Positions 8,150 through 17,959 of a stretch of DNA of 64,000 nt are shown piece by piece. Source of the DNA: Moorella sp. E308F (lineage in GTDB: Bacteria > Bacillota > DSM-521 > Neomoorellales > Neomoorellaceae); NCBI RefSeq assembly GCF_006538365.1, contig NZ_BJKN01000001.1, forward strand, positions 675,639 to 739,638. Direction: 5' to 3'. A program made the translations under genes and the position numbers. Within the stretch, counting starts at the first letter, position 1. Each line of letters starts with the position of its first letter. The notes beneath the pieces were generated by a model, which worked only from the letters and a program-made list of their open reading frames with translations, searched no databases and was not told the DNA's origin.

Positions 8150-8410
8150 AATATAAAAACCTTTCATCCCGTCAGGGACGAAAGGCCGCGGTTCCACCCT
8201 GCTTGGAGAATTGCTCTCCCTCTCAGCGGGCAATATAACGCCCAGGCCAATAACGGGGCCCGCCGGCAGAACCTACTTCACTTTCAGTCCTGCAGCTCCC
8301 AGGAGCACTTCAGCGCCCGGTATCCGGGTCCACTTCCAGCCAATGGTGGTCCCTCTCTGGTGACCCCTGGTGCGCCTACTCTCCCTGCTCATAGCCATTG
8401 GCACTATAAA
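8150..8410 (-). promoter_or_regulatory. Cysteine-specific T-box leader
   Basis: On the minus strand the canonical T-box AGGGTGGAACCGCGG is at 8200-8186, followed by a terminator stem CCTTTCGTCCC/GGGATGAAAGG and a T-run at 8159-8155. In Stem I the codon TGC (8294-8292) followed by A is the likely specifier for cysteine, consistent with the downstream cysE-cysS genes. Uncharged tRNA-Cys should pair at both sites and prevent termination. The AGGAGG of cysE lies just beyond the terminator. The exact 5' end is uncertain. Confidence 0.9.
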
Positions 8411-12750: not shown

Positions 12751-13545
12751 TTATACACCAACCGCCCGGGATTGGGAAGTCCTACCAACCGAGGTCTTTT
12801 CTTCCTGGATTGACTGGGGGCGGCGGCGATGCCATCCCAGGTACTCTTTAACCCGGTTGGCAGTCAAATTCAACACCTGATCTTCGTCAATACCGGCGCT
12901 GCGTGCTACCTGCCAGGCCCGGGCAAAATTACCAACTGCCGTGAAAACATGGGCGTCGCTATTTAATGCGACCCAGACTTTATATTTCTGGGCCAGCCTG
13001 GCCAGGAGCTGGCAGCGGGGCAGGCTGCCAGGCCGGCTCACGCTAAAGGAATTGTTATTGATCTCCAGGGCTTTATGCTCGGCAGCAGCTGCCTGCACCA
13101 GCTTTTCTATATTTAGGGGAAATTCGGGATTGCCGGGGTGGACGATAATATGTACCCGCGGATTCCTTACGGCCGCCAGGGCGGCGCGGGTATATTCTTC
13201 CTCGGATCGGTTATCAAAACCTGTACCCGTGTGGAAACCCGCCAAGACAATGTCTAACTGGTCAAGCAGGCGATCTGGCACATCCAGGTGTCCCTCTGCA
13301 TCCAAAATATTGGCTTCCACACCCCGTAGAATTTCTACATTGCCAATCTTGCGGGGCAGGGCTACCAGATTTTCAAAGTGATATTCATGGGGACCGCCAG
13401 GCATTTTAAGGCCATGATCGGTAATGGCAATCATCTTCAGTCCCCGTTTTTCAGCAGCTTCAGCCAGTTCTTTAACAGTACTGTAACCGTGACCGCTGGC
13501 GATGGTGTGGGTGTGGAGATCCGCTTCCAGATGCACTTGCCTCAC
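12751..13545 (-). CDS. PHP-domain phosphoesterase (YcdX-like)
   Basis: The 264-residue protein has the metal-binding motifs of the PHP family: DLHTHT, ITDHG, GVEANIL, HTGTGF, VHPGNP and NSDAH, the order seen in YcdX-type trinuclear-zinc phosphatases. The substrate is unknown. The last 20 residues (QEEKTSVGRTSQSRAVGV) are low in structure. It ends 12 bp before radA and is divergent from the structured RNA candidate at 13.69-14.13 kb. Confidence 0.8.
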   Translation of the reverse strand: MRQVHLEADLHTHTIASGHGYSTVKELAEAAEKRGLKMIAITDHGLKMPGGPHEYHFENLVALPRKIGNVEILRGVEANILDAEGHLDVPDRLLDQLDIVLAGFHTGTGFDNRSEEEYTRAALAAVRNPRVHIIVHPGNPEFPLNIEKLVQAAAAEHKALEINNNSFSVSRPGSLPRCQLLARLAQKYKVWVALNSDAHVFTAVGNFARAWQVARSAGIDEDQVLNLTANRVKEYLGWHRRRPQSIQEEKTSVGRTSQSRAVGV

Positions 13546-13658: not shown

Positions 13659-13687
13659 TACATACTAGCTGCCAGCTGGGGTATAAT
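13659..13687 (+). promoter_or_regulatory. Promoter of the structured RNA candidate
   Basis: A perfect TATAAT at 13682-13687, with a weak -35 (TACATA) at 17-nt spacing. It faces away from the divergent PHP gene and into a region with no convincing ORF. Confidence 0.45.
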
Positions 13688-13693
13688 ACTATC

Positions 13694-14134
13694 AGCGGGG
13701 TCGGCCAGGGCCGAGCCAAGAAAATTATCGGGTCCCAATGACGGGCTCGGTTATTTTCGGCCAAAGGTTGCCAGCAGGTCAAAAGGCTTGCTGGCCGGCC
13801 GGCGGGCAGATCAGCAGCTGTTCATCACGGCTTGCCGTTAGTCCGAAGGATTAATGGCAGGTCGGTAAGGATGGTTGCTGGTCGAGCTAAGATGACCATA
13901 GTTGCCGCAAGGCTTTTCCTCACCAAAAAGCCGGAGGTTCCTAAAGGTCGAGAGATCTTTATGGGCTTCGCAGGTAGCTATGGTCGTCGAGCAAAGGTTA
14001 TTGTAGTTGCCGTAATGGTCTGTGGCAGCCGGAAGGTTGTCGCCGGCTATGCAGGTAGCTGCAGTAGCCGGAGTTAAGGTTCTGGCCGGCTCTTTAAAAT
14101 GAAGGCCCTCCTTAATGGAGTGGCCTTCATTTTT
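13694..14134 (+). ncRNA. Candidate standalone structured RNA (about 440 nt)
   Basis: This gene-free stretch between the PHP gene and the sensor kinase is full of perfect local hairpins: GCCAGCA/TGCTGGC (13770-13795), GGCTTTT/AAAAGCC (13911-13932), TAAAG/CTTTA (13942-13961) and a compound stem CCGGCTA-TGCAG/CTGCA-G-TAGCCGG (14043-14071). Near the 5' end GGCCGA (13709-13714) can pair with either of two TCGGCC copies (13701 and 13757), competing with CCGAGCC/GGCTCGG (13711-13750), so mutually exclusive folds are possible. Two partly similar segments, about 110 nt apart, share GTCGAGC and TAGTTGCCG. A promoter and a strong terminator bracket it. It does not look like 6S RNA, tmRNA, RNase P or SRP RNA. 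An 81-aa ORF inside (13832-14077) has no ribosome binding site. Confidence 0.5.
14100..14134 (+). terminator. Strong Rho-independent terminator
   Basis: TGAAGGCC/GGCCTTCA plus an inner CTCC/GGAG, followed by TTTTT (14130-14134). Upstream AAAA makes it potentially bidirectional. Confidence 0.8.
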
Positions 14135-14138
14135 ACCT

Positions 14139-14164
14139 AAAAAAGTGGCCCAGAAAACCTGGGC
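14139..14164 (-). terminator. Terminator downstream of the sensor kinase
   Basis: On the minus strand GCCCAG/CTGGGC with a 5-nt loop, then CCAC and TTTTTT. It lies about 125 bp past the kinase stop codon; the intervening DNA (14165-14288) shows no gene. Confidence 0.5.
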
Positions 14165-14288: not shown

Positions 14289-15773
14289 TTAATTCTGGCC
14301 TTTTTTACTCTTCGTCTCTATCTCCCCTTCCGTTACTACCGGTAAGGTAAAAAAGAAACGACTGCCCTGCCCCGGCTGGCTGGCGACGCCAACATTACCA
14401 CCGTAGGCTTCAATAATATGCTTGACAATGGCCAGGCCCAGGCCGGTTCCACCCATTTCCCTGGAGCGAGCCTTGTCAACCCGGTAAAAACGTTCGAAAA
14501 CCCGGGGCAGGCTTTCTGCTGGTATGCCAATACCGGTATCTTCTACTTCCACCCGGAGGCCCTTATCCTCCAGCCTGGCCCGTACCGTTACCCTGCCACC
14601 GGCAGGGGTATACTTAATGCCATTGTCAATTAAATTTAGCAAAACCTGGCTTAGATAATTCTCGCCAATGGCCAGGAGCGGCAGGCCTTCCGGTATTTCT
14701 ACTTCCAGGCTAACACCCTTTTCCCGGGCCAGGGGATTGACAGTGGCCAAAACCCCATCCAGGACAGACATGAGCTGGGCCCGGCCGGCGCGAATCCCCC
14801 TAGGATTATTTTCCAGCTTCGAAAGAGCAAGGAGATCTTCAATTAACTGCTGCAGGCGCTGAGCCTCCTTATTGATAATACCTAGAAAACGGCGGCTCAC
14901 CTGTGGGTCTTCCAGGGCACCTTCCAGCAGAGTCTCTACAAAACCCCGGATAGACGTCAAAGGCGTGCGCAGTTCGTGGGAAACATTGGCCACAAATTCC
15001 GTTCGCATTTGTTCCAGGCGGCGGATGTTTGTTATATCCCGGATGGTCAGGGCCACCCCTACAACCCGCTTTTGAGCACTGATAATGGGTGCCCCATAAA
15101 TTTTAAAAATCTGGTTGGTTGTAGGAAAAAGGCGGGTTTCTATTTCCAGGGGCATGCCGCTGGCCAGGATTTCTTTGACCAGTTTATCGATCTCATAATT
15201 CCGGATTACTTCTAATAAATATTTGTGCTCGACTTCTCCTCCTTTTTTACCAAACATGGCCTCCGCCGCCGGATTTAAGAGCATTACCCTGCCAACCTGG
15301 TCTACAGTTAGCAGGGCATCGCTCATACTGGCAAGAATTGCCTGCATTTTATTTCTTTCTTCAGCCATTTCCCGAAAATTATTTCTTAATGTTTCCACCA
15401 TGACATTGAGGTGGTGGCTCAACAGTCCTATTTCGTCATTACTTTGAATTTCTATACGCTGCTCCAGGTCGCCGCTGGCAATTTTTTGCGTCAGGGGTAG
15501 CAAAGCCCTCAGGGGCATGATAATCCCTCGGGACAGAATAAAGGTCCCAGCAGTCATTACTACCATGACCGCCATCATAGCCAGCAAGAGTTGCCCTTCC
15601 AGTCTGGCCACCAGGATACCGGCTCGAAAGGGCGGCAGCCATGGCAGGCCCAGGGCGTTAAGGATGGCCTGACGCAGGAAAAGATAAGCAGCCGTCAGGG
15701 TCAAAAAGAGCAGGACTAAAAAATTTAAGGCGATCTTCCAGCTTAAAGAACGCATGGCCATCACCACCATCAT
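14289..15773 (-). CDS. PhoR/WalK-like sensor histidine kinase
   Basis: A 494-residue membrane kinase with two transmembrane helices (about 15-40 and 58-80) around a very short extracytoplasmic loop, then HAMP (PLRALLPLTQKIASGDLEQRI), PAS (AILASMSDALLTVDQVGRVMLLNPAAEAMFG), HisKA (FVANVSHELRTPLTSIRGFVETLLEGA) and HATPase (NLIDNGIKYTP, DTGIGIP, GGTGLGLAIVKHI). This is the PhoR/WalK architecture. No response regulator is adjacent, so it is an orphan here. It follows the HD-GYP gene by only a few bases and is probably co-transcribed. The small loop suggests sensing through the membrane or the cytoplasmic PAS. Confidence 0.88.
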   Translation of the reverse strand: MMVVMAMRSLSWKIALNFLVLLFLTLTAAYLFLRQAILNALGLPWLPPFRAGILVARLEGQLLLAMMAVMVVMTAGTFILSRGIIMPLRALLPLTQKIASGDLEQRIEIQSNDEIGLLSHHLNVMVETLRNNFREMAEERNKMQAILASMSDALLTVDQVGRVMLLNPAAEAMFGKKGGEVEHKYLLEVIRNYEIDKLVKEILASGMPLEIETRLFPTTNQIFKIYGAPIISAQKRVVGVALTIRDITNIRRLEQMRTEFVANVSHELRTPLTSIRGFVETLLEGALEDPQVSRRFLGIINKEAQRLQQLIEDLLALSKLENNPRGIRAGRAQLMSVLDGVLATVNPLAREKGVSLEVEIPEGLPLLAIGENYLSQVLLNLIDNGIKYTPAGGRVTVRARLEDKGLRVEVEDTGIGIPAESLPRVFERFYRVDKARSREMGGTGLGLAIVKHIIEAYGGNVGVASQPGQGSRFFFTLPVVTEGEIETKSKKGQN

Positions 15774-17859: not shown

Positions 17860-17959
17860 TGGCGGGAGTGTGTGGGAATCGAACCCACCGCGCCCGGGCC
17901 TCACCCGCGCGCCGGCTGGATTTGAAGTCCAGGCAGGCCACCAGGCCCGATCCACTCCC
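17860..17959 (-). tRNA. selC: Selenocysteine tRNA (TCA)
   Basis: A 100-nt tRNA with acceptor GGGAGTG/CACTCCC, GCCA 3' end, anticodon stem-loop CTGGACTTCAAATCCAG with anticodon TCA, a long GC-rich variable arm and T-loop GTTCGATTC. A TCA anticodon and long extra arm are diagnostic of tRNA-Sec, which decodes in-frame UGA with SelB. selB and selA lie 5-8 kb upstream on the same strand. Confidence 0.95.

Follow-up and report, generated by a model that had tools for sequence, protein, structure and literature searches.

What is encoded in the interval between two minus-strand genes of Moorella sp. E308F, and what might its product do? The window analyzed here, a stretch of 64,000 nucleotides, contains a PHP-domain gene (12751-13545, minus strand) and a gene for a PhoR-type histidine kinase (14289-15773, minus strand), and a preliminary description of the sequence alone had proposed a candidate new structured RNA between them. 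The proposal is supported by conservation, by massive covariation and by the lack of any corresponding Rfam family. Positions 13697-14092 of the plus strand are a real large non-coding RNA gene.

Organization and fold of the RNA gene

The interval holds a plus-strand unit in which a promoter-like element is followed by about 396 nt of structured sequence and by a terminator hairpin ending at 14134 (Table 1). The predicted transcript extends from about 13696 to 14135 on the plus strand, some 440 nt. The neighbors, formerly described together as convergent/divergent, are both minus-strand genes as stated, and their orientations can be told apart: the PHP-domain gene is divergent from the RNA and the histidine kinase gene is convergent with it. 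A hairpin with a T-run at 14148-14164 (minus strand), just past the RNA terminator, is probably the terminator of the histidine kinase gene, and the two units end back to back. Other RNA elements of the window include a T-box leader at 8171-8401 (minus strand; Rfam RF00230, 97.8 bits) and a selenocysteine tRNA gene at 17864-17959 (minus strand), on which Rfam (RF01852) and ARAGORN are concordant.

Table 1. Coordinates (window positions) of the RNA gene and its parts.
Feature	Position	Strand	Remarks
-35-like element ACATA, sigma-F/sigma-G type	13660-13664	+	14 nt before the -10; position conserved in relatives
-10-like element GGGTATAATA (consensus GGnnAnAnTA)	13679-13688	+	same -35 spacing as SASP/gpr promoters
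Large structured RNA, closing stem P1 to P1'	13697-14092	+	fold and alignment
P1, 5' strand	13698-13712	+	pairs with 14078-14092
Linker A (CCGAGCMAGA type)	13713-13719	+	
Arm P2	13720-13758	+	
Linker B (UCGGCCAAAGGU type)	13759-13765	+	
Arm P3	13766-13800	+	
Linker C (CCGGCGGGMAGAU type)	13801-13808	+	
Arm P4	13809-13883	+	
Linker D (UCGAGCUAAGAU type)	13884-13890	+	
Arm P5: variable side hairpin and GNRA-capped hairpin (13934-13969)	13891-13988	+	
Linker E (UCGAGCAAAGGU type)	13989-13995	+	
Arm P6: GNRA loop 14031-14034; module behind covariance model R1	13996-14069	+	
Linker F (CCGGAGCGAAGGU type)	14070-14077	+	
P1, 3' strand	14078-14092	+	
Terminator hairpin of the RNA (AAAATGAAGGCC...GGCCTTCATTTTT)	14097-14134	+	sequence, fold

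The stretch 13690-14134 (445 nt) folds at -259.6 kcal/mol, compared with -159.4 +/- 6.8 kcal/mol for 100 dinucleotide-preserving shuffles (z = -14.8), and 156 of the 173 MFE pairs have a pair probability above 0.9. The strong hairpins, the terminator hairpin and the lack of a credible open reading frame, all pointed out before, are borne out by sequence and fold. The molecule consists of a closing stem, P1, and five arms, P2 to P6, which emerge from a central junction and are joined by six nearly invariant linkers, all of them variants of YCG(R)(R)GCnAAGRU. A GNRA loop caps P6 in 27 and P5 in 26 of 30 sequences. Each of the helices P1 to P6 contains one triplet of a G.U, a Watson-Crick and a U.G pair, six in all, whose wobbles are kept in 80-100% of the sequences while the neighboring pairs swap freely; one further wobble triplet, broken by alignment gaps, lies in the inner P6 stem. 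G.U wobbles make up at least 70% of the pairs in 21 pair columns. These columns would be A.C mismatches on the opposite strand, which fixes the RNA strand as plus.

Conservation, covariation and repeated arms

By blastn, 30 of 61 related genomes contain the sequence, and they include different families. Folded one by one, the relatives show the same architecture with different helix sequences. Covariation among homologous regions, proposed earlier as a check, is massive: RNAalifold on 30 diverse full-length sequences gave 148 consensus pairs, and in 108 of these both partners have changed in a compensatory way at least once. In an alignment of P6 from 21 sequences, 97% of the cells are paired, as against 29-46% in slid controls, and both sides have changed in 24 of the 32 pairs (12.1 +/- 1.9 in column shuffles, 6-12 in slid controls). 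A covariance model built from arm P6 matches 164 of the 398 genomes in an even sample of the phylum of Moorella; the lowest E-values reach 1e-32. An exact pattern, run against 84,980 species genomes, was found in 19 contigs labelled Moorella, Carboxydocella, Desulforudis, Pelotomaculum, Desulfovirgula or Clostridia/Bacillota. In several genomes the RNA gene is present in two or more copies; two complete genes per genome, 2.6-16 kb apart, occur at L115 (2.6 kb), L144 (6.7 kb), L147 and L148. A phage or plasmid origin was also considered, and blastn with the RNA of one locus (L020) against phages and plasmids gave no match. The single IMG/VR pattern match (L154) is attributed to chance; it lies opposite a long phage ORF and is not matched by the covariance model.

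The P6 model (13985-14092) also recognizes other arms of the same molecule, namely P4 (13800-13905, E 5e-13), P2 (13709-13780, E 9e-7) and P5 (13934-13972, E 9e-6), and therefore the arms are diverged repeats of one module. Other arms are likewise detected in most of 39 relatives. The preliminary description, which had suggested a repeated module from two similar segments about 110 nt apart, was right and understated the case.

Independence from neighboring genes

The RNA gene is independent of its neighbors, as shown by its own promoter and terminator, by a downstream neighbor that is antisense to it in 42 of 47 loci, and by the unrelated nature of the adjoining genes, which include those for a PhoR-type kinase, TldD, SpoIVA, SpoVR, a class I tRNA synthetase, ThiC, an M20 peptidase and PPDK-type proteins. 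The earlier statement that the RNA is the leader of neither neighbor agrees with these orientations. A cis-acting switch or leader of a neighboring gene, or a small protein gene, has a negligible likelihood. The switch had been proposed from mutually exclusive pairings at the 5' end, but the alternative helix between CCGAGCC (13711) and GGCTCGG (13744) has a pair probability of 0.0 at all seven positions and is not conserved; in relatives, CCGAGCC is a fixed linker and the P2 strand shows covariation with the partner of its own helix. The claim of an RNA switch thus falls with the helix. A riboswitch or cis-regulatory leader would be expected to precede, in the sense orientation, a gene that recurs from locus to locus, and here the gene families of the neighbors differ. 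An 81-aa ORF does exist, but frameshifting indels interrupt it in 10 of 10 congeners, so that the small protein, which the preliminary description had itself named as the reading opposed to an RNA, is refuted.

A link to the Pho regulon was considered from PhoR-, PhoB-, PhoU- and PstS-like neighbors seen by eye in some loci. It was dropped because other loci adjoin genes for TldD, tRNA synthetase, ThiC, SpoIVA, SpoVR, PPDK-type proteins and others. The RNA gene adjoins spoIVA at one locus (L120, genome G311) and a SpoVR-like gene at another (L126, G194); this may be chance, as other loci have unrelated neighbors. In one genome (G017), a c-di-GMP-I riboswitch (Rfam RF01051, L012:519-632) lies near the RNA gene.

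A predicted promoter of forespore type

Across families, the RNA is preceded by GnATA-N13-14-GGnnAnAnTA, with the spacer counted from beyond position 6 of the -35 box. The TATAAT box reported earlier corresponds to a TATAAT-like box at 13682-13687, but this belongs to the -10-like element of Table 1, which is not accompanied by a sigma-A -35 box. The sigma-A-type pattern was found in 0 of 51 RNA upstream regions. Among 60 upstream regions, the first A and the T of the -10 are present in all 60 and the final A in 98%. A matrix trained on the RNA promoters places 56 of these 60 regions above the 99th percentile of shuffles, a score obtained on its own training sequences. For the independent test, a matrix was trained only on sequences upstream of SASP and gpr genes in related genomes. 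It has the form GnATA-N15-nnCATACTA; in both sets, 18 nt separate GnATA from the conserved A of the -10. Of 50 regions upstream of the RNA, 30 scored higher with this matrix than the 95th percentile of shuffles (2.5 expected) and 14 higher than the 99th. The SASP promoters agree better with the forespore matrix than do those of gpr. Of 27 genomes, only 7 have a spoIIR upstream region that the RNA-trained matrix scores above the 95th percentile of controls (1.4 expected). Controls for the promoter analysis were drawn from individual loci.

In C. difficile, a conserved G marks sigma-F promoters on the upstream side of the -10 and an A marks sigma-G promoters on its downstream side; the spoVT promoter, which has both, responds to both sigma factors (PMC3789822). 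The RNA promoters resemble that of spoVT in combining the upstream G with the downstream A. Motif and spacing together strongly support a predicted promoter of the forespore sigma-F/sigma-G type, and they support the view that the RNA would be transcribed in the forespore. This promoter and the connection with sporulation had been missed in the preliminary description.

Apparent restriction to spore formers

SpoIIR is present in 332 of the 398 genomes. It accompanies the RNA in 158 of the 164 carriers; five more have SpoIVA, and the last one is a genome that is 61% complete, so that a marker gene for sporulation is present in all carriers but one (163 of 164). The association between RNA and SpoIIR has a Fisher p of 5e-10, in a test that ignores phylogeny. 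A deeper search with model R1 in 18 RNA-negative genomes lacking SpoIIR gave 0 matches, and SpoIVA was absent from the eight RNA-negative, SpoIIR-negative genomes tested for it. Gene content thus strongly supports a restriction of the RNA to spore formers, which essentially all carriers appear to be. The converse fails: 174 of the 332 SpoIIR-positive genomes have no RNA match, and the RNA is therefore not generally needed for sporulation. A genome of the same family as that of the window (G013, a draft assembly of 1.4 Mb) has SpoIVA, SASP and gpr and no RNA match, and is a candidate for natural loss of the RNA, or else for an assembly gap.

The absence from half of the spore formers would suit a housekeeping RNA of general stress or stationary phase, kept in spore formers by happenstance, and the abundant raiA/ModT RNA is not forespore-specific and yet affects sporulation (PMC11706538). 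The forespore type of the promoter and the lack of a sigma-A-type pattern argue against this reading, which is considered quite unlikely.

Possible role and mechanism

The best overall explanation, given a probability of roughly 55%, is that of a forespore-made, stand-alone and trans-acting structural RNA with a scaffold role. RNA polymerase with sigma-F and/or sigma-G would transcribe the gene in the forespore, and the product would fold into six related helices around a central junction, a rigid and very stable scaffold for which a structural role is inferred. The arms might pack together, or against other copies, through the invariant G.U/Watson-Crick/U.G platforms and the GNRA loops, as in RNA-only particles. 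Alternatively, they could offer six equivalent sites to one protein of the forespore or spore core. The repeated platforms, the GNRA loops and the extreme stability argue for helix packing or for multi-copy binding of one protein. The more specific proposal, that this is a class of large RNA made only in the forespore, whose six repeated arms build a spore-core particle of RNA alone or of RNA and protein, is tentative, at somewhat less than even odds.

Repeated arms with repeated wobble triplets, a forespore promoter and two or more gene copies in several genomes could also be expected of a sponge or decoy, in which six equivalent arms titrate an RNA-binding protein in the forespore, or RNA polymerase as 6S RNA does. 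This is unlikely: the reading comes without a candidate protein, there is no Rfam match to 6S RNA, and the linkers and junction, needless for a simple sponge, are conserved as much as the arms.

The conserved unpaired positions are short and repeated, which argues both against antisense pairing and against a single active site. Forespore-controlled small RNAs of possible regulatory role are known in Bacillus, CsfG and Bvs196 (PMC9147052), and would offer a model for classical antisense pairing with forespore mRNAs. However, the present RNA is almost wholly helical, as the pair probabilities show, with almost no unpaired stretches long enough for such pairing; its exposed parts are fixed linkers and GNRA loops, and its variable sequences vary as base pairs. 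Antisense action is accordingly distinctly improbable. A ribozyme or other catalytic RNA, active in sporulation or germination, would agree with the large size, the complex fold and the near-invariant junction linkers. It is very improbable, as the conserved unpaired nucleotides are few, repeated sixfold and not gathered in one active site, and no Rfam match to known ribozymes was obtained.

Large structured bacterial RNAs are rare, and for several known classes a function is lacking. The present RNA is highly conserved across many families of one phylum and absent from Rfam. Two features hint at a role: the promoter is of forespore type, and the gene appears confined to spore formers. Confirmation would open a way to study the functions of stable non-coding RNAs during spore development and dormancy, as well as the construction of large assemblies from repeated RNA arms. 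Should the spore-core particle prove true, the spore compartment would have a large ornate RNA of its own. Culturable spore formers, e.g., Moorella thermoacetica, make the RNA amenable to testing.

Comparison with known RNAs

None of the 4227 models of Rfam 15 exceeds its gathering score over the RNA in the window, where only weak, chance-level matches appear at E-values up to 10, and none matches the RNA in 20 diverse relatives. This agrees with the earlier failure to match the sequence to 6S, tmRNA, RNase P, SRP or c-di-GMP aptamer patterns. The covariance models of the OLE, GOLLD, ROOL and raiA families also gave no match in the window RNA or in 20 relatives. No description was found in the open literature, to which the search was confined, and the main texts of the open papers that treat 26 and 50 bacterial genomes contain no mention of Moorella or Desulfotomaculum. 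By open literature and Rfam, the RNA is rated as a new family that can be placed, loosely and by description, among the large ornate bacterial RNAs, and it is a member of none of the known families of that kind.

OLE, ROOL and GOLLD are the published precedents for RNA-only assembly, and OLE occurs mainly in anaerobic or extremophilic Bacillota (PMC12286853). Like them, the present RNA is a large, elaborate, stand-alone bacterial non-coding RNA of unknown function, and its GNRA-type loops and repeated contacts would fit assembly of the same type. It differs from them in its six repeated arms on one junction, the sixfold linker and wobble triplet, the forespore-type promoter and the lack of an Rfam match.

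6S RNA forms one long helix with a bubble resembling an open promoter. The present RNA shares with it the character of a stable RNA and differs in the six-arm fold and in having no Rfam match. In B. subtilis, 6S RNA affects the timing of sporulation (PMC9147052).

The raiA motif, or ModT, is similarly a widespread, structured and trans-acting RNA of Bacillota linked to sporulation (PMC11706538). The present RNA differs in having a forespore-type promoter, whereas ModT is abundant during exponential growth (PMC11706538), and in matching no Rfam family. CsfG and Bvs196 of Bacillus are forespore-restricted, stand-alone RNAs controlled by sigma-F/sigma-G, and deletion of the stably folded Bvs196 (294 nt) alters spore resistance (PMC9147052). 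The present RNA resembles both in standing alone and in its predicted sigma-F/sigma-G type of control. They have been reported from Bacillus; the fold energy of Bvs196 is -82.3 kcal/mol over its 294 nt, as compared with -259.6 kcal/mol over 445 nt in the Moorella RNA.
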